7,569 nt of DNA from Verrucomicrobiaceae bacterium (lineage in GTDB: Bacteria; Verrucomicrobiota; Verrucomicrobiae; Verrucomicrobiales; Akkermansiaceae): positions 1 to 7,569 of the forward strand of contig CANBTO010000232.1 in NCBI GenBank assembly GCA_947372405.1, read 5' to 3'. Made by a program: the position numbers and the translations under genes. Positions 19 to 7,569 of this stretch are shown here, one piece after another. Positions within the stretch are counted from its first letter, which is position 1; each line of letters begins with the position of its first letter. The notes beneath the pieces were generated by a model. The model saw only the letters and a program-made list of their open reading frames with translations, had not been told where the DNA came from and ran no database searches.

Positions 19-231
19 TCACTCACAGTCCGCATGGATTTTTTCTAACAATTTATCAAGATCCTCCATCGCCTTCATGGCGGAGTTCACGGTGGATGCC
101 AGCTCGGACAAGTAATCGCTTTCGAATTCCAGCGCCTTCTGGTCGGACCATGATTCGCGGGTCCGCTCCCAGTTCGCCAGGAGCTGGCGGGTGGCCAGCG
201 CGAGGGCTCCCTTGCCGCCGGAAGCACTCAT
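19..231 (-). CDS. Small WXG100-like helical protein (70 aa), last visible gene of the trio
   Basis: The 70-residue product is predicted to be almost wholly helical, with no signal peptide and no membrane segment. Its key motif is W28-S29-D30-Q31 followed by F36, matching W43-x-D45-Q46-x4-F51 in the 90-aa protein two genes upstream. Both resemble the mid-protein turn of WXG100/ESAT-6 proteins, with Asp in place of Gly. Known WXG100 proteins are about 100-residue helical hairpins exported by FtsK/EssC-type ATPases, so 70 residues is short. The ATG at 231 was chosen because it overlaps the stop of the preceding gene (ATGA) and has the best ribosome site in the trio, GGGAGG six bases upstream. 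A longer in-frame reading starting at 435 would run antiphase through the preceding gene and is rejected. The gene is real with good confidence; the WXG100 link is inferred from the motif. It could also be a structural partner of the coiled-coil protein. Confidence 0.72.
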   Translation of the reverse strand: MSASGGKGALALATRQLLANWERTRESWSDQKALEFESDYLSELASTVNSAMKAMEDLDKLLEKIHADCE

Positions 232-761
232 GTGGCGCCTCCCTCTCCCGTATTCTCCGTGGCAGCCGGCGCGGATGGTTTCGATGACAGGCCGGTTTCC
301 GCATAAGCCTGCAAGGTCTTGACCAACTCTCCCAACGAATGGATTCCCGCATGCAGCGTCCGCTCGACAAGGAAATGCATCGGATCCAACTGCCGCAGCA
401 ATGGCGTGACTCGGTTGTCGTAATTCCGCCTCCATTTTTTGAGGACGAGCATTTTCTCCTCAGCCTCCTCAAGCCTGCGGCGCGCCTTGAGCACGCCCAT
501 TTTCTGGAAGGCATGGCTTTCAGTGGGACTGGTGATCGTGACGCTGTAGAGTTCCGCCTCGGCCGCTTCGAGTTGCTTCTTCCGCAACCGAATCTGCGAA
601 TTCCAATGACCCGTGCGGTCCACCTCCAACCAAGTCTGCGTGCGTCTCACTTCGCCCCCCGCATCTTCCAGCGCCACACGCGCCCTCTCCACATATTTGA
701 TCAAATCCACGCGGAACGCTTCCAGCGCGTCAATGGAGGAAACTTTCGCATGCTCTGCCAT
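228..761 (-). CDS. Cytoplasmic coiled-coil protein (177 aa) between two WXG100-like genes
   Basis: I do not recognise a named family. The protein has no signal peptide or membrane segment. Residues about 9-112 are rich in A, E, L, K and R with heptad-like spacing and look like a long helical hairpin. Two tryptophans, W44 and W53, sit near the first bend, and the stretch between them (W44-L-E-V-D) loosely recalls the W-x-D turn of the neighbours. Residues 110-155 look like further helices, and the last 20 or so are a Ser/Pro/Ala/Thr/Gly-rich, probably disordered tail. The gene starts 18 bp after the upstream stop and overlaps the next start by 4 bp, so the three are probably one transcript and the products may form a complex. 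Only a weak ribosome site (GGAA) precedes the ATG. A role as a chaperone or scaffold for the small WXG100-like proteins is a guess from context. Confidence 0.75.
   Translation of the reverse strand: MAEHAKVSSIDALEAFRVDLIKYVERARVALEDAGGEVRRTQTWLEVDRTGHWNSQIRLRKKQLEAAEAELYSVTITSPTESHAFQKMGVLKARRRLEEAEEKMLVLKKWRRNYDNRVTPLLRQLDPMHFLVERTLHAGIHSLGELVKTLQAYAETGLSSKPSAPAATENTGEGGAT
238..243 (-). promoter_or_regulatory. Strong Shine-Dalgarno site for the 70-aa WXG100-like gene
   Basis: On the minus strand GGGAGG lies six bases before the ATG at 231, inside the end of the preceding coding region. Most other starts in the window have little or no Shine-Dalgarno match, so this site supports the internal start at 231 and suggests efficient, coupled translation of the last gene. 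Confidence 0.6.
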
Positions 762-779
762 GGCGGTTGTTCCGGATCT

Positions 780-1052
780 TCAACGCTGGTCCAGATACTG
801 CTGGATTCGCTCGGCTTTGCGCAGGAGATAGGGCGTGTGGCGCTCGGACAGCTCGAGAAAGCCCTTCAGCGTTTTCATCAGCTGCACGAACTCACCCGCG
901 AATTTCTCCTGCTCCTGATCCTGCCAGGTGTCTCCCAGCGCGGTGAAACGCGCCATCAACGCTCCTGTCCGCTCTCGCAAATCTCCGTTGAACCGTTTCA
1001 ACTCCGCAGCGAAACGACGGACCTCCTCGGGATCGATGATGGCTTGTGACAT
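780..1052 (-). CDS. WXG100-like protein (90 aa), first gene of the trio
   Basis: The 90-residue product has no signal peptide and is predicted to be two long helices joined at a turn: about residues 8-40, then 47-88. The turn carries W43-Q44-D45, and F51, F55 and L59 follow on one helix face. Length, helix layout and Trp position match the WXG100 (ESAT-6/EsxA) family, in which the W-x-G motif is also near residue 43; here Gly is replaced by Asp. The Y-x-x-x-D/E export signal used by mycobacterial ESX substrates is not present: Y87-L-D-Q ends in Arg. The 70-aa protein downstream shares the W-x-D-Q-x4-F motif, so the two look like distant paralogues that could pair. The ATG at 1052 has no clear Shine-Dalgarno site. 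A cytosolic coiled-coil role unrelated to secretion remains possible. Confidence 0.75.
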   Translation of the reverse strand: MSQAIIDPEEVRRFAAELKRFNGDLRERTGALMARFTALGDTWQDQEQEKFAGEFVQLMKTLKGFLELSERHTPYLLRKAERIQQYLDQR

Positions 1053-1790: not shown

Positions 1791-2549
1791 TCAAGGTGCC
1801 ACGAGCTGTTCGCGAAGCACGGCCATCGAGTAATCGCGGTTGAGGCGGGCGATGTGTTCGACGCTGATTTCCTTCGGGCAGGCGGCCTCGCACTCGTATT
1901 GGTTGGTGCAGTTTCCGAAGCCTTCGGCATCCATCTGGCGGACCATCGCGAGCACGCGCTTGTCACGCTCCGGCTGGCCTTGCGGCAGGTGCCCTAGGTG
2001 GGAGACCTTGGCGGAAACGAAGAGCATGGCGGAGGCGTTCTTGCAGGATGCCACACAGGCACCGCAGCCGATGCAGGCGGCGGCATCAAACGAGGCGTCC
2101 GATTGGGCCTTGGGAATGGGAATCGAGTTGGCGTCGATAGCGGAGCCCGTGCGCACGTCCACATAGCCGCCTGCGGCAATGATGCGGTCGAAGGCCTCGC
2201 GGTCCACGATGAGGTCGCGGATGACCGGGAAGGGATTGGCGCGGAAAGGCTCCACCCAGATGGTGTCACCGTCTTTGAATTTGCGCATGTGGAGCTGGCA
2301 GGTGGTCACGCCGCGGTCCTTGCCGTGGGGAATGCCGTTGATCGTGAGCGAGCAGGCTCCGCAGATGCCTTCGCGACAATCGTGATCGAAGTGGATCGGC
2401 TCCTCGCCTTTTTCGATGATGCGTTCGTTGACGATGTCGAGCATTTCGAGAAACGAAGCCTCCGCAGGGATGTTCTTCGCGTCATACGTTTCGATTTTGC
2501 CTTGGGCCTTGGGCCCGGACTGCCGCCATACTTTGAGTGTCAGATTCAT
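1791..2549 (-). CDS. sdhB: Succinate dehydrogenase/fumarate reductase iron-sulfur subunit
   Basis: SdhB passes electrons from the flavoprotein SdhA to the membrane cytochrome b subunit in complex II. The 252-residue product is full length. The N-terminal [2Fe-2S] ferredoxin domain has C58, C63 and C66 (in [10 protein letters not shown]) and C84. The C-terminal domain has C159, C162 and C165, which with C224 should hold the [4Fe-4S] centre, and C169, C214 and C220 for the [3Fe-4S] centre, so all eleven expected ligands are present. The insert-rich sequence looks closer to the diheme-cytochrome b type found in Bacteroidetes and epsilon-proteobacteria than to E. coli SdhB; that subtype is my inference. 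sdhA and sdhC are not adjacent: upstream lies a non-coding gap and then a divergent glycosidase gene, and downstream lies msrB. No Shine-Dalgarno site precedes the ATG. Confidence 0.95.
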
Positions 2550-2580
2550 GGGGTGAGATACGGAAAATTGATCTGGAATC

Positions 2581-2594
2581 CGGCGTGTCCGCCG
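2581..2594. promoter_or_regulatory. Small GC hairpin in the sdhB leader
   Basis: CGGCG-TGTC-CGCCG forms a 5-bp stem with a 4-base loop, 32 bp before the sdhB start. There is no T-run on either side, so it is not a terminator. It may structure the 5' leader or be chance in GC-rich DNA. Confidence 0.2.
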
Positions 2595-2645
2595 TGACCG
2601 CCAACGCGAGCAGATTAGTTGGCATTGCGCCGCGGGCTAGGAGAA

Positions 2646-2657
2646 AAATCCGGATTT
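2646..2657. promoter_or_regulatory. 12-bp perfect palindrome, possible operator
   Basis: AAATCCGGATTT is a perfect 12-bp palindrome in the non-coding gap between the divergent sdhB and GH2 genes, about 97 bp before the sdhB start. Perfect even palindromes in such a position are typical of binding sites for dimeric regulators, but no regulator gene is in the window and only one copy was noticed. Confidence 0.25.
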
Positions 2658-2790
2658 GTGGTCCCTTCCCCTGATTTTCCACGCATCATTTGACAAGACC
2701 GCCAGCCACACCGGTGAACCCGAAAAAAATTTCGACATCCAGTTTGACAGGCAGGGATTCCGGTGATTTTTTCCCGGCGTCGCAAGACAA

Positions 2791-2857
2791 AGGCGGCCCG
2801 ATTGAGCTTCCCTCTGGGTTTTTGGGTTTTTCCCGGGGATTATCGATCGGGCCGCCT
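2791..2857. repeat. Long GC-rich inverted repeat around a T-rich loop
   Basis: The arms 2791-2802 and 2846-2857 (AGGCGGCCCGAT and its complement) match perfectly over 12 bp. The stem extends to 15 pairs, 2791-2805 with 2843-2857, if one G-U pair is allowed. The 37-base loop holds a tandem GGGTTTTT duplication (2816-2831) followed by CCC, and an inner TCCC/GGGA stem (2809-2812 with 2836-2839). It ends 79 bp before the GH2 start and would be in its leader if transcription begins upstream. It could be a structured 5' UTR, a palindromic dispersed repeat (REP/MITE-like), or a terminator. On the minus strand the stem is followed by TTTGTCTT, but no gene reading that way ends here. Confidence 0.6.
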
Positions 2858-2874
2858 CGCGTACGGGTCATGTC

Positions 2875-2888
2875 ATCCCGAACGGGAT
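2875..2888. promoter_or_regulatory. Short hairpin in the GH2 leader
   Basis: ATCCC-GAAC-GGGAT folds into a 5-bp stem with a 4-base loop, 18 bp after the larger inverted repeat and 48 bp before the GH2 start. Together they give the leader two successive stems. There is no T-run, so it is not an intrinsic terminator. Confidence 0.25.
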
Positions 2889-2936
2889 AATCCGCTTGTC
2901 CTGATCCGTCCTGATGCCGACGCTCGGGTTGTCGTT

Positions 2937-5411
2937 ATGAAAACCCACACCCTGCTTGTTCTCGCGGCGTCAGTTCTTGCATTACATGGAGCCACCCGGG
3001 AGTCGTTCGACTTCTCCTGGAAATTCGCCCGCTTCGGTGCCATGCCGGACGGCTCGCAACTCGCCGAGCCCACCGCGGACTCCTTGCCCACCGCGCCCGC
3101 TTTCGATGACGCCAAATGGCGCGCCGTCAACCTGCCGCATGACTGGGGCATCGAAGGCCCGTTCCGCGCGGATCTGCCGAACAGCACCGGCAAGCTGCCA
3201 TGGGCCGGCATCGGCTGGTACCGTCGGACGCTCGACCTAACAGACGCCGACCAGGGCAAGGCGCTCTTCCTCGACTTCGACGGTGCGATGTCCCAGCCGA
3301 AAGTCTTCGTCAACGGCAAGCTGGCGGGCGAATGGGCCTACGGCTACAGCTCCTTCCGCATCGACATCACCAAGTTCGTGAAATTAGACGCGCCCAACAC
3401 CATCGCCGTCCGGTTGGAAACTCTTCCCGATTCCTCACGCTGGTATCCGGGAGCGGGCCTTTACCGTCACGTCTGGCTGGTGAAGGCGAATCCCACCCAC
3501 ATCGCCTACAACGGCGTGTTCGCGCACGCGGAAAACATCACGACGGACACTGCCGACCTTGTGGTCAAAGTCGCGCTCGCTCCGGATGCCGGCTCTGGCC
3601 AGCCGATCGGAGTGATCTACGAACTTTTGGACCAAAGCGGAAAACGCGCGCAACGAGCAATCGGCCCGGCGGACTCCAAGGACATCCGGATCAAGCTCAA
3701 ATCCCCCAACCTTTGGCAGACCGAAAAACCTTACCTCTACACTTTGCGCACCACGCTCTTTAGAGGCGAAGATAAACTCGACAGCGAGGACACTCTGATC
3801 GGCATCCGCAGCGCCACATGGAAACCGGACGGCTTTTACCTGAACGGCGAGCGCGTCCAGATCAAAGGTGTCTGCAACCACCACGACCTCGGTGCCATCG
3901 GCTCCGCCTTCAACGAGCGCGCCGCCGAGCGACAACTCCAGTTGCTCAAAGACATGGGCTGCAATTCCATCCGCACGTCCCACAATCCGCCGGCACCGCA
4001 GTTGTTAGACCTGTGCGACCGCATGGGCATGCTGGTCCTCGACGAGTTGTTCGACGCATGGAAGCTCGCCAAGAAAGCCGACGACTACCACCTCCACTTC
4101 GACAAGTGGCACGAGCGCGATGTCGAGAATTTCATCCGCCGCGACCGCAACCACCCCTGCGTGATCGCATGGAGCACCGGCAACGAAATCCCGGAACAGG
4201 CGAAACCTGAATTCAATGGGGTTTCCGCGGAACTCACCGGACTCTTCCGCAGCCATGATCCCACCCGGCAGATCACGCTTGGTATGAACCACCTCGGCAG
4301 CGCGCTCACCCCCTTCGCTGATACCGTGGACATCACCGGCCTCAACTATCCGGTGAAGGATCCGAAGATCATCGAAAAGATTCGTGCACGGAAACCGGAC
4401 GTGCCGGTGCTCACTTCCGAGAGTTCTTCCTGCGTGAGCAGCCGCGGTTGCTACTTCTTCCCCGTGAAATGGGACAAGGGCTCTGGATTCCGCGGATTCC
4501 ACGCAAGTTCCTATGAGCTCTACGCCCCGGGCTGGGCCAACCGCCCGGACCTCGATTTCGAACTGCTCGAAAAGAACCCGTTCATGGCCGGCGAATTCGT
4601 CTGGACCGGCTTCGATTACCTTGGCGAGCCGACCCCATTCAATACGGACAGCTCCAACGCCCTCAACTTCGACAACGAGGAGGACAAGAAGAAGTCGATG
4701 GAACTCTTCGCGAAACTCGGCGGCAAGTCCCCTTCCCGCTCGTCCTACTTCGGCATCCTCGACCTCGCCGGTTTTCCGAAGGACCGCTATTATCTCTATC
4801 AGGCGCACTGGCGTCAGGACTTCCCGATGGCCCACATCCTGCCGCACTGGAACTGGTCCGAGCGCGTCGGACAGGTCACGCCCGTGCATGTCTTCACCTC
4901 GGGCGATGAAGCTGAGCTCTTCCTCAACGGACAATCGCTGGGTCGGAAAAAGAAGGAAAAATATCAATACCGAATCGTCTGGGATGACGTCGTCTATCAG
5001 CCAGGCACGCTCACGGTGAAGACCTGGAAAAACGGCAAGCCCTGGGCGCAGGACGAACGCTCCACCACCGGTGCTGCATCCAAGATCCTCGTCACCGCCG
5101 ACCGCCCTGAGATCAAGGCGGATGGCAAGGACCTCTGCTATGTCAGCATCACCATCGCCGATGACCAGGGCCGCCTCGTCCCGCGTTCAATGAACCGTCT
5201 TCAATTCAAAGTGGAAGGCGATGCGGAAATCGCCGGCGTCTGCAACGGCGACCCCACCAACCTCGAATCCATGCAAGGAGACACCCTGCCCGCCTTCAAC
5301 GGCCTCTGCCAGGTCGTGCTGCGTGGGAAAGCGGGAAAACCCGGCGTCGTGACTCTCAGCGTGGCTTCGGAAAATCTCCCGGCCGGTAAAGTAACGGTCA
5401 CCATGAAGTGA
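2937..5411 (+). CDS. Secreted GH2 beta-galactosidase-type glycoside hydrolase (824 aa)
   Basis: This is a retaining exo-glycosidase of family GH2, most like the multi-domain beta-galactosidases of Bacteroidetes and Verrucomicrobia. Residues 1-19 are a signal peptide (K2, hydrophobic 5-16, likely cut after L-H-G-A). Then come the sugar-binding sandwich (about 22-185), an Ig-like domain (about 187-292), the TIM barrel (about 295-622), a DUF4982-like domain (about 635-705) and a C-terminal Ig-like domain (about 712-820). In the barrel, G-V-C-N-H-H-D (311-317), S-I-R-T-S-H-N-P-P (344-352), acid/base E417 in G-N-E and nucleophile E495 in T-S-E-S are intact, as is the E-F-V-W-T-G-F-D-Y region (553-561). 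The start at 2937 is set by the signal peptide. An in-frame ATG at 2763 would add 58 residues that run through the inverted repeat and hide the signal. No Shine-Dalgarno site is clear. The gene stands alone, with no transporter or regulator beside it. Substrate could be galactosides or host/algal glycans; exact specificity cannot be read here. Confidence 0.93.
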   Translation: MKTHTLLVLAASVLALHGATRESFDFSWKFARFGAMPDGSQLAEPTADSLPTAPAFDDAKWRAVNLPHDWGIEGPFRADLPNSTGKLPWAGIGWYRRTLDLTDADQGKALFLDFDGAMSQPKVFVNGKLAGEWAYGYSSFRIDITKFVKLDAPNTIAVRLETLPDSSRWYPGAGLYRHVWLVKANPTHIAYNGVFAHAENITTDTADLVVKVALAPDAGSGQPIGVIYELLDQSGKRAQRAIGPADSKDIRIKLKSPNLWQTEKPYLYTLRTTLFRGEDKLDSEDTLIGIRSATWKPDGFYLNGERVQIKGVCNHHDLGAIGSAFNERAAERQLQLLKDMGCNSIRTSHNPPAPQLLDLCDRMGMLVLDELFDAWKLAKKADDYHLHFDKWHERDVENFIRRDRNHPCVIAWSTGNEIPEQAKPEFNGVSAELTGLFRSHDPTRQITLGMNHLGSALTPFADTVDITGLNYPVKDPKIIEKIRARKPDVPVLTSESSSCVSSRGCYFFPVKWDKGSGFRGFHASSYELYAPGWANRPDLDFELLEKNPFMAGEFVWTGFDYLGEPTPFNTDSSNALNFDNEEDKKKSMELFAKLGGKSPSRSSYFGILDLAGFPKDRYYLYQAHWRQDFPMAHILPHWNWSERVGQVTPVHVFTSGDEAELFLNGQSLGRKKKEKYQYRIVWDDVVYQPGTLTVKTWKNGKPWAQDERSTTGAASKILVTADRPEIKADGKDLCYVSITIADDQGRLVPRSMNRLQFKVEGDAEIAGVCNGDPTNLESMQGDTLPAFNGLCQVVLRGKAGKPGVVTLSVASENLPAGKVTVTMK

Positions 5412-5544
5412 TCGTTGCATCGCAGCATCGTTTCTAACAAGTTCCGGCACCCCGGCCGTGGCGGCGGAAGGAGGCGCATGGCTTCCGTTCCCGCGACATC
5501 TCACCCCGAATTCCGAAGGTGCCGGGATGGCATGTTAGAATTTG

Positions 5545-5657
5545 ACCACGGATTACACGGATTACACGGATTACACGGATTACAGACTTCACCAAACAGG
5601 TTCATCAATCAATTCCACAACCTCTTCATCATCCGTGTAATCCGTGTAATCCGTGGT
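5545..5657. repeat. 27-bp inverted repeat built from CACGGATTA units between convergent genes
   Basis: Arms 5545-5571 and 5631-5657 are perfect reverse complements over 27 bp, enclosing 59 bases. On the plus strand the right arm is followed by TTCAATTTTGGTTTT, so the structure could end transcripts of the GH2 gene. From the other side it lies just past the stop of the pseudoprotease gene. ACCACGGATTACACGG-type repeats like this recur between genes in many environmental bacterial genomes, as I recall; I cannot check copy number here. It may be a dispersed palindromic repeat that also serves as a bidirectional terminator. Confidence 0.75.
5547..5582 (+). repeat. Four tandem copies of the 9-bp unit CACGGATTA
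   Basis: Four exact head-to-tail copies of CACGGATTA fill these 36 bp. The opposite arm holds two full copies and a partial third in inverted orientation, so the left arm looks expanded by slippage. The rest of the 5412-5734 gap shows no gene. It has only an 8-bp inverted repeat, CCGGCACC (5445-5452) with GGTGCCGG (5518-5525), too far apart to weigh much. Confidence 0.85.
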
Positions 5658-5734
5658 TCAATTTTGGTTTTCGGGCTCACCACTCCCACCCAAAAAGCAT
5701 CCCTTGTTTCCCGACACGAATATCGGTCAGGCCG

Positions 5735-6790
5735 TCATTGGACTCCGTCCGTAGCCGCGTCACCGCCGCCGGACTTCGGCGCCTGATCGGGCACGCCGGG
5801 CTCCTTCATCAAGCGCCCGGCGAGGGCTTTGAGATCCTCCACGGGAATGGCAAAACTTTCGGCGCGGTTGGCGCGAGCGATGTTCATGCCGATGCATTGA
5901 CCGTCCAGATCAATCAAGGGGCCGCCGACTGACTTGCTGTTTCCGAGGATGTCGGTCTGCATCACGCGGGGGAATCCGCTGCGGCGCTTGGAGTAGTCCC
6001 CGCTCATCTGGTCGTTGCGGTTCATTTGATCGGTGAACATCTCGCTCTTGGCTGCAAGCCGGACTTCAACCGTTTTCTCCTCCTTGCCACGGCGGTAGGT
6101 GAGTTTCACGGTGCTTCCCGCCTTGCGGTCTTTGAGAACATCAGCGACGTCCTTGAGCACCTTGACGGGTTTGTCCTCGATGGAGAGGATCACGTCACCT
6201 TTCTGAATCCCAGCCTCCTTGGCACCGCTTTTTTCATTCACATCGTCCACTTCCAGCCGCTTGCTGTCCGGCTTGAGTACGAGGCCGAGGGCGGCTCCTC
6301 CGGCAGCAGGGATCTCACGGATCTTCGCACTGACGATGCCGGCGAGCAACCGGCGGGTGGTGCGGGTGGTCGCGCCGTTGGCGACGACCCACGACCCCTG
6401 AGGCACGTCGCTCGTTGGTGCATATCTAACGGGAACAAGCCCGGTGGCCTCGATCTTCAGCAGCGCGACGTCCCACTCGGCGTCGATCGCCAGGATCTTC
6501 ACTTCCGGGTAGTTGGTGTGGTCCACGGTGACGGCGAGCTTTTCCACCTGCGAGACCTCGCTGGCCTTGGTGAGGATGTGGCCCTCCGCGGAAACAACGA
6601 CTCCGTAGCCGCATTCCTTGTGGCCGTCGAGAATCACGGCGCTGGATGTCTGGAGGACGGCGCGCTGCGTTTCGAAGGCGGCGACCACCGCGGGACCGGT
6701 GGTGCGGTATTCGGACTCAAGCGACTGTTGCCCTAACAGCGGAGTGGCAAGGCAGCAGAAAACAAACGGGCGGAGGAAATCAGCGTTCAC
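5735..6790 (-). CDS. Secreted HtrA-like pseudoprotease with a PDZ domain nested in the protease fold (351 aa)
   Basis: The protein resembles trypsin-like HtrA/DegP proteases but has lost catalytic residues. A signal peptide (residues 1-20, R7, hydrophobic 9-19, cut near L-L-G/Q21) leads into the first beta-barrel half: G-Y-G-V-V-V (61-66) and I-L-T-K-A-S (72-77), where family members read T-N/A-x-H, so the His position is Ser77. D107 in E-W-D-V-A-L is kept. A PDZ domain follows at about 165-247 (E-A-G-I-Q-K-G-D-V-I, 192-201). The second barrel half is at about 272-328: S287-V288-G-G-P-L replaces G-D-S-G-G-P-L, so the nucleophile is Val288, then D-L-D-G-Q-C-I-G. A Gly/Asp-rich tail ends it. 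GTG at 6790 is the only start that places the signal peptide at the N terminus; it overlaps the upstream stop by 11 bp. Reading frame and fold landmarks are otherwise intact, so this looks like a functional non-enzyme, not a decayed gene. It may bind peptides or regulate the neighbouring active protease (inference). Confidence 0.85.
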   Translation of the reverse strand: MNADFLRPFVFCCLATPLLGQQSLESEYRTTGPAVVAAFETQRAVLQTSSAVILDGHKECGYGVVVSAEGHILTKASEVSQVEKLAVTVDHTNYPEVKILAIDAEWDVALLKIEATGLVPVRYAPTSDVPQGSWVVANGATTRTTRRLLAGIVSAKIREIPAAGGAALGLVLKPDSKRLEVDDVNEKSGAKEAGIQKGDVILSIEDKPVKVLKDVADVLKDRKAGSTVKLTYRRGKEEKTVEVRLAAKSEMFTDQMNRNDQMSGDYSKRRSGFPRVMQTDILGNSKSVGGPLIDLDGQCIGMNIARANRAESFAIPVEDLKALAGRLMKEPGVPDQAPKSGGGDAATDGVQ

Positions 6791-7569
6791 CGAGTTTGAA
6801 GGTAAGGGTTTCGTTCTTGCCGTTGCGTTCGAGTTCGAGCTTGAGCTCGTCACCGGCGGACATTTCCTTGAGAAGATCCTGTAGCTGTTCGCGCTTCGAC
6901 AGCGGCGTGTCATTCAACTTGAGGATCACGTCGCCGACCTTTACCCCGGCTTCCTGGGCGGGACTCTTGTCCCCCACCTTGGTCACCGACAGGCCGCCCT
7001 CCGCACGGGACTCAGTGGCCAACCCGAGGAAGCCGTTGCCCTTCACCGGTTTTTTGGCGAACGGCCCCTCTCCGATAAACTCGCCTTTCACCAGTCCGTC
7101 CCAGTTTTTGACGAACTCGTTCATCGGCACGTGCATGTTCACCTGGAGCTGCTGGCCGACACGCGAATGGATGCCCACCAGCTTTCCCGTTAGATCAAAC
7201 AGCGGGCCGCCGGAGTCCCCGCCAATGAGGATGCAGTCCGATTGAAACGTGGAGTTCGCCACCCGCACCAGGCGGCCGAGACGCACGACCGAGCCGCGGG
7301 TCTTGTCGAATCCGCCGGAATGGCCGAGCGCGAAGACCCAGTCGCCAAGACGCGTGGAGTTCGAGCGGTCCATTTCCACGAAAGGATAGGTTCCCTTGTC
7401 GATGATGCGGATCATGGCCGCGTCCGTATCCGCCACTAGGCCGAGGGTTTCCGCCTTCAGTTTGGTGCCGTCCTCGAGAATGATGGTGACCTTTTTCCCC
7501 ACTCCCGAGCTGACGTGGGCGGCGGTGAGCACCAGTCCTTCCGGGGAAACAATGACTCCGCTGCCCGAT
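6780..7569 (-). CDS. HtrA/DegP-type serine protease with C-terminal PDZ domain, N terminus beyond the right edge
   Basis: The reading frame is open to the right edge, and 262 residues are visible. Visible residues 1-19 already match the protease core (G-S-G-V-I-V-S-P-E-G-L-V-L-T-A-A-H-V), so the signal peptide and start lie outside the window; the GTG at 7532 codes for a Val inside this motif and is not the start. The triad is complete: His18 (T-A-A-H), Asp49 (D-T-D-A-A-M) and Ser119 (G-G-D-S-G-G-P-L). One PDZ domain follows at about 177-259, with E-A-G-V-K-V-G-D-V-I as its ligand-side helix region. HtrA proteases degrade or refold damaged periplasmic proteins. It overlaps the downstream pseudoprotease gene by 11 bp and is surely co-transcribed with it. 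DegS-like single-PDZ architecture is possible, depending on whether the missing N terminus is a membrane anchor. Confidence 0.9.
   Translation of the reverse strand, partial: SGSGVIVSPEGLVLTAAHVSSGVGKKVTIILEDGTKLKAETLGLVADTDAAMIRIIDKGTYPFVEMDRSNSTRLGDWVFALGHSGGFDKTRGSVVRLGRLVRVANSTFQSDCILIGGDSGGPLFDLTGKLVGIHSRVGQQLQVNMHVPMNEFVKNWDGLVKGEFIGEGPFAKKPVKGNGFLGLATESRAEGGLSVTKVGDKSPAQEAGVKVGDVILKLNDTPLSKREQLQDLLKEMSAGDELKLELERNGKNETLTFKLGER

Follow-up and report, generated by a model that had tools for sequence, protein, structure and literature searches.

The window, meaning the whole 7,569-nt stretch of DNA analyzed here, carries on its minus strand two overlapping genes of the HtrA type, P0001 and its partner P0002. 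Their features are as follows, with the basis of each in parentheses.

5735..6790, minus: gene P0001, a nested-PDZ HtrA pseudoprotease (351 aa, GTG start, stop codon inside the range; homologues found)
6731..6790, minus: probable export signal, P0001 residues ~1–20 (hydrophobic N terminus; model helix 3–14)
6311..6643, minus: first part of the double barrel, P0001 residues 50–160 (Trypsin_2 61–158; model strands 50–160)
6557..6568, minus: K-A-S-E, P0001 residues 75–78, with Ser77 at the catalytic His site (codons checked)
6470..6472, minus: Asp107 at the catalytic Asp site of P0001 (family counts)
6317..6319, minus: Arg158 of P0001, equivalent to DegS Arg178 of loop L3 (alignment A3; DegS numbering checked)
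6056..6292, minus: PDZ domain, P0001 residues 167–245, within loop L3 (PDZ_2, E 4.9e-17)
5969..6019, minus: conserved linker RNDQMSGDYSKRRSGFP, P0001 residues 258–274, where the chain returns to the barrel (alignment A2)
5801..5974, minus: second part of the double barrel, P0001 residues 273–330 (phmmer alignment; predicted fold)
5957..5959, minus: Gln278 of P0001, equivalent to DegS Gln191 (phmmer alignment; the Q of Q-T-D)
5927..5929, minus: Val288 at the catalytic Ser site of P0001 (codon checked)
6780..6790, minus: 11-nt overlap of P0001 and P0002, GTGAACGCTGA (sequence check)
6780..7568, minus: partner HtrA P0002, 5′ end cut by the window, protease then PDZ (Pfam; His18, Asp49, and Ser119 intact)

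Pfam matches only profile positions 1–108 of 144 of Trypsin_2 in P0001 (residues 61–158), followed by PDZ_2 (residues 167–245), which is the broken protease plus PDZ that domain tools might show according to a sequence-only reading of this DNA. That reading also gave the coordinates and domain order of P0001 correctly (ORF 6790–5735, minus strand; Pfam and phmmer). As aligned by phmmer to a solved DegP-like chain, P0001 residues 59–162 correspond to chain residues 96–199 and residues 275–329 to chain residues 204–263. Since chain residues 199 and 204 are the counterparts of P0001 residues 162 and 275, the PDZ domain and the linker occupy a single loop, in which ∼112 residues of P0001, PDZ included, replace ∼5 of the DegP-like chain. 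The predicted fold places both trypsin-like parts in one double barrel, with only ∼128 model residues preceding the PDZ domain within the aligned range. The model was built on 27 sequences and has a pLDDT of 63–68 in the linker; many columns of the linker are invariant or nearly so in alignment A2.

The prediction and the fold alignment thus bear out the earlier proposal of a PDZ domain nested in one double barrel: residues 272–328 did not fold separately, and no homologues appeared with a C-terminal PDZ and a gap to explain the order. Two separate folds were ruled out by 180 residues aligned to a PDZ-less chain, ending at 330. The search for homologues that the same reading had proposed returned the identical domain order in 170 distinct domains, obtained from 197 nested domains in the fetched loci at 98% identity. 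A frameshift, an assembly error, a gene-call artefact, or chance was ruled out because the order is kept in all 170. The protease-PDZ-protease order is also found in 47 of the 54 proteins P0243–P0296.

In DegS, the signal passes from the PDZ domain to loop L3 and on to the active site of the neighbouring subunit. The accessible text on DegS gives L3 as residues 176–189 and describes Arg178 of L3 as meeting the LD′ loop of the next subunit in an activation cluster with Thr167 and Gln191 among its members (PMC11642142); the accessible text on HtrA2 has LD and L1 contacting the PDZ domain of the adjacent subunit (PMC5759095). With DegS numbering checked against the E. coli K-12 sequence, the spacing from Arg178 to Gln191 is 12 residues in DegS and has a median of 120 (111–140) in the nested family (n = 217, with P0243 and L162, the same protein, both counted). 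The residue matching Arg158 is Arg in 168 of the 170 distinct domains. The residue matching Gln278 is Gln in 164 of 170, an equivalence that rests on the phmmer alignment and on the common Q-x-D ahead of the Ser loop; alignment A3 is unusable past the insertion, where the C-terminal barrel part of DegS and DegQ is misplaced. The long spacing therefore puts the PDZ domain in L3 with both flanking relay residues kept. Judged from sequence, the nested PDZ of P0001 is inserted in the sensor loop L3, a point absent from the sequence-only reading. Gly169 of the PDZ loop is kept in 214 of the 217 nested sequences. Insertion in the LD/autolysis loop was ruled out by the DegS sequence and the L3 range (176–189) in the accessible text of PMC11642142.

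The earlier implication that residues 55–160 and 272–328 supply a protease's His, Asp, and Ser was not supported. P0001 itself has Ser77, Asp107, and Val288 at the His, Asp, and Ser sites, and the loss is family-wide. At the His site, the 170 distinct nested domains have Ser (165), Thr (3), or Glu (2), and never His (0/170); the Asp site is Asp in 167 and Asn in 3; and the Ser site is M in 71, V in 42, C in 28, I in 9, T in 6, Q in 5, A in 5, E in 2, S in 1, and L in 1. The sole Ser at the Ser site belongs to L162, whose His site is Ser. The 57 members formed by the first locus set and the window have Ser (55), Thr (1), or a gap (1) at the His site. All 47 nested proteins of P0243–P0296 have Ser there, and at the Ser site they have Cys (29), Thr (11), Ile (3), Ser (2; P0243 and P0244), Ala (1), or Met (1). 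The K-x-S-E motif at the His site is nearly fixed across the family: Lys75 is kept in 167 of the 170 distinct domains, and the 217 nested sequences keep Lys75 in 214, Ser77 in 212, and Asp107 in 213.

By these residues P0001 is a pseudoprotease, as is the nested family, which the sequence-only reading had not recognized. An active nested relative could have escaped, since members were gathered by similarity to the family and the searches scored only the best 7 candidates in each genome. Where P0001 has Thr279 (5954–5956), 189 of the 217 nested sequences have a family-specific His (Q-H-D); canonical HtrA proteins and P0001 have Thr.

P0002 contains a whole Trypsin_2 domain (residues 2–133) followed by PDZ_2 (residues 180–259), the usual HtrA order already ascribed to this neighbour. 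The triad is HDS in 55 of 55 partners of the first set and in 166 of 166 overall, counting the L055 fusion twice. An HtrA gene lies just upstream on the same strand in 156 of the 170 distinct nested domains, and an ATG or GTG allowing the identical 11-nt overlap is present in 35 of 55 pairs. Nine more of the 170 are fused to an active HtrA (8 active-first, 1 nested-first), and the remainder comprise 3 at contig edges, one without a partner (L110), and one odd case (L055). In L055, at 2365–4242 (+), a 625-aa protein has its nested half behind a degenerate first half, and a 743-aa active-plus-nested fusion follows directly downstream.

By the reach of the partner-HMM match, 143 of the 156 separate partners have a PDZ domain and 13 do not; the PDZ labels, those of L054 and L155 included, come from this span, and among those labeled as lacking one, P0281 matches a PDZ weakly and L055 contains a PDZ-like stretch in its spacer. 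Within L095–L107, 11 distinct pairs have partners of 246–254 aa without PDZ, and L106 alongside is a fusion of that type; the representatives L095, L106, and L107 form one clade on the nested tree. There the nested PDZ is the only PDZ of the pair. With 143 of 156 separate partners carrying a PDZ of their own, sensing may not depend on the nested PDZ alone.

A partnership of the nested pseudoprotease with an active HtrA is strongly supported by these data; the pairing was not part of the sequence-only reading. Its recurrence in related bacterial groups suggests that sensing and cutting are divided between two partner proteins. Besides the pair itself, any one neighbouring family was present in at most 21 of 53 loci; two of the 55 loci supplied, L019 and L031, fell out because their nested ORF had not been retained. 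Six neighbour representatives examined with Pfam (RNA polymerase alpha, ribosomal L17, photolyase, a methyltransferase, a TPM domain, and one without a hit) gave no hint of a pathway.

A protein search with a Lentisphaera fusion as query gave 113 matches. Fusion was found in 21 of the 47 nested proteins of P0243–P0296, of which 14 are nested-first and 7 active-first, and G-D-S-G-G is present in 20 of the 21, the exception being P0255, which is named partial. The fused state requires 6 changes on the nested tree (89 representatives) and 5 on the partner tree; both trees were built by a quick method, many of their forks are weak, and some branches are long. On this sequence evidence, fusion arose several times and in both orders. 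The predicted model of the natural fusion L106 has a pTM of 0.74, and its fold-search match is silent on how the halves meet.

Mapped on the partner tree, the five groups of the nested tree require 4 changes, which is the minimum (3 rows ungrouped), and group sysB alone needs 2 and is no clean clade there. Distances on the nested and partner trees correlate with r = 0.88, where permutations reach at most 0.25; part of this reflects shared descent, as shared inheritance alone also yields a high tree correlation. Four genomes each have a second nested-type match, with an HtrA in front in the two examined (L085 and L086), and the second-pair partners likewise form one group on the partner tree. 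As the trees read, the paralogous pairs were duplicated as units. The second pair of L085, L086, L153, and L154 has the same gene order and a nested pseudoprotease of 421–431 aa with K-W-S-E; its Ser site in L085 and L086 reads C-G-G-P. On a barrel-only tree, 29 nested and 29 partner sequences each make up one side of a branch with full support, and 14 canonical HtrAs stand apart from them. Together with the history of the pairs, this separation makes the nesting look like a single old event followed by long co-inheritance.

Matches at E ≤ 1e-25 were found in 31 of 288 Verrucomicrobiota genomes and in 205 of 288 genomes at the level of the order (Verrucomicrobiales), with the best 7 candidates scored per genome. 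None of 296 Bacteroidota genomes gave one at this threshold among the best 7 candidates each, an empty answer that by itself carries no weight, and five Bacteroidota genomes gave split hits only. Names among the nested-family loci are Akkermansiaceae, Verrucomicrobiaceae, Rubritalea, Luteolibacter, Haloferula, and Roseibacillus, and further names are Phragmitibacter, Roseimicrobium, and Prosthecobacter. Matches to the Lentisphaera query add Lentisphaeraceae, Lentisphaerales, Planctomycetaceae, Mariniblastus (Planctomycetota), and Planctomycetes. By these matches, the nested family reaches across Verrucomicrobiota, Lentisphaerota, and Planctomycetota, and the planctomycete relatives suggested in the sequence-only reading were borne out (P0259, Planctomycetaceae; P0269, Mariniblastus; P0288, Planctomycetes). 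P0113, at 71% identity, is named a Gloeobacteraceae cyanobacterium MAG and speaks against a family confined to the PVC group; we suspect that its cyanobacterial label reflects mis-binning. P0263, P0269 (Mariniblastus), P0274, and P0278 have long tails behind the barrel, several with acidic and Lys-rich repeat runs ahead.

We lean, with modest confidence, towards a model of a two-protein HtrA system in which P0001 senses, without cutting, and turns its active partner on. Both proteins would be exported, the hydrophobic residues ∼1–20 of P0001 being a probable export signal, and would come together in a mixed HtrA oligomer. Binding of a peptide, probably a protein C terminus, to the nested PDZ would move L3 directly. 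Arg158 and Gln278 would carry the signal on to the neighbouring active subunit at its LD loop, in the way that Arg178 of DegS L3 acts across subunits, and the partner would be switched on as a result. With ligand sensing by the dead subunit and cutting by its partner, the two functions would thus be divided between subunits. Consistent with this two-protein model are the single barrel, the lost His and Ser, the insertion in L3, the retained relay residues, the pairing and fusion, and the partners without PDZ. Against it stand the partnerless L110, the odd second protein of L055, the unclean sysB, and the PDZ domains that most partners have of their own. That P0001 switches its partner at all is what we infer from these features; that it activates rather than inhibits is a guess by analogy to DegS. 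Generalized to the PVC group, the proposal would be a split HtrA in which a dead subunit with a PDZ in L3 gates an active subunit in trans within an obligate mixed oligomer, and in which the PDZ-less cutting subunit of one clade depends on its dead partner for all PDZ sensing. We regard this wider version as tentative, just short of an even chance.

The same pairing and fusion evidence would fit an inhibitor, i.e., a dead subunit in the oligomer of the partner that keeps the partner off up to its release by a ligand or by stress, and the accessible text on DegS describes the L3/PDZ contacts as autoinhibitory without ligand (PMC11642142). Retention in the nested family of the residues that activate DegS argues against inhibition, and a permanent one-to-one fusion would still require a release signal; as such a signal is required either way, the inhibitor departs from the activator model in its default state only. 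We consider inhibition unlikely. Somewhat more doubtful is an adaptor, in which the barrel is a mere scaffold and the nested PDZ captures C termini and passes substrates to the partner with no L3 relay involved. The retention of Gly169 (214 of 217) and the partners of L095–L107 that lack a PDZ accord with this role, which leaves unexplained both the placement of the PDZ in L3 and the near-fixed Arg158, Gln278, and K-x-S-E.

The family might also not be dead, having re-made an active site from Lys75, Ser77, and Asp107 (214, 212, and 213 of 217), often with Cys at the Ser site (28/170 and 29/47) or His at the Thr279 position (189/217). This we judge very improbable: the Ser site and the preceding loop vary freely in the main clade, P0001 has Val288 and Thr279, and a catalytic set of Lys, Ser, and Asp with Cys or His is not known in a trypsin fold. 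A separate function, for instance in binding a metal or ligand, with the neighbour retained for unrelated reasons, has a precedent in the dead HtrA MamO, which binds metal and is found beside active MamE in the accessible text of PMC4794232. Pairing that is almost strict, fusions that recurred in both orders, and duplication of the two genes together make such independence the least credible of these explanations, and we give it hardly any weight.

Compared with HtrA/Deg proteins (DegS, DegP, DegQ, and AlgW), P0001 shares the HtrA-kind trypsin double barrel. It differs in having Ser77, Asp107, and Val288 instead of the His-Asp-Ser triad and in having its PDZ (167–245) between barrel parts 50–160 and 273–330, whereas theirs follows the complete protease; nested members are, moreover, encoded as a pair with an active HtrA. 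The activating model for P0001 has its closest working analogue in MamO/MamE of the magnetosome, where a degenerate HtrA fold likewise occurs with an active HtrA in the same cluster, and the dead homologue MamO is needed for proteolysis that depends on active MamE, as the accessible text reports (PMC4794232). That text gives MamO a C-terminal transporter domain and metal binding and describes no nested PDZ (PMC4794232), whereas P0001 (351 aa) has a nested PDZ and no transporter domain (Pfam, up to E 1). A surface di-His metal site is a further mark of the MamO type.

SpoIVB (S55) has a trypsin-like fold in close contact with a PDZ, termed a “PDZ domain insertion” in the accessible text, where the PDZ lies ahead of the protease with one PDZ strand tucked in, and His236 and Ser378 are present (PMC12502668). 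In P0001, by contrast, the PDZ interrupts the sequence of the barrel, and neither the catalytic His nor the catalytic Ser remains; the NCBIfam spore_IV_B model matches only the PDZ (164–243). S41 C-terminal processing peptidases (CtpA, CtpB, and Prc) have a PDZ within the peptidase chain and a different peptidase fold. P0001 has no S41 Pfam domain up to E 1, and NCBIfam S41 models match only ∼165–261, the PDZ region. The parts are known (HtrA fold, PDZ, pseudoprotease); no description of the nesting site, of the family-wide loss with near-fixed K-x-S-E, or of the split pair was found in the open-licence literature searched, outside which most subscription papers lie. If the model is true, the family would be a natural experiment separating sensing from cutting, in which the L3-to-LD relay could be studied with a single sender and a single receiver. 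An implication is that many PVC proteins now labeled “serine protease Do” or “S1C family serine protease” probably do not act as proteases on their own.

Elsewhere in the window, the intergenic region at 5539–5663, between convergent genes, contains facing 9-bp units (ATTACACGG) in 33-nt arms that are 94% complementary and 59 nt apart; a 24-nt piece was found in 0 of 223 loci compared. At 780–1052 (minus), a gene for a 90-aa WXG100 (ESAT-6-like) protein (39 bits versus a cut-off of 27.3) adjoins two small ORFs, 228–761 and 19–435 (minus), that have no Pfam match above the cut-off. This arrangement hints at a WXG100 secretion gene set in a Verrucomicrobium.
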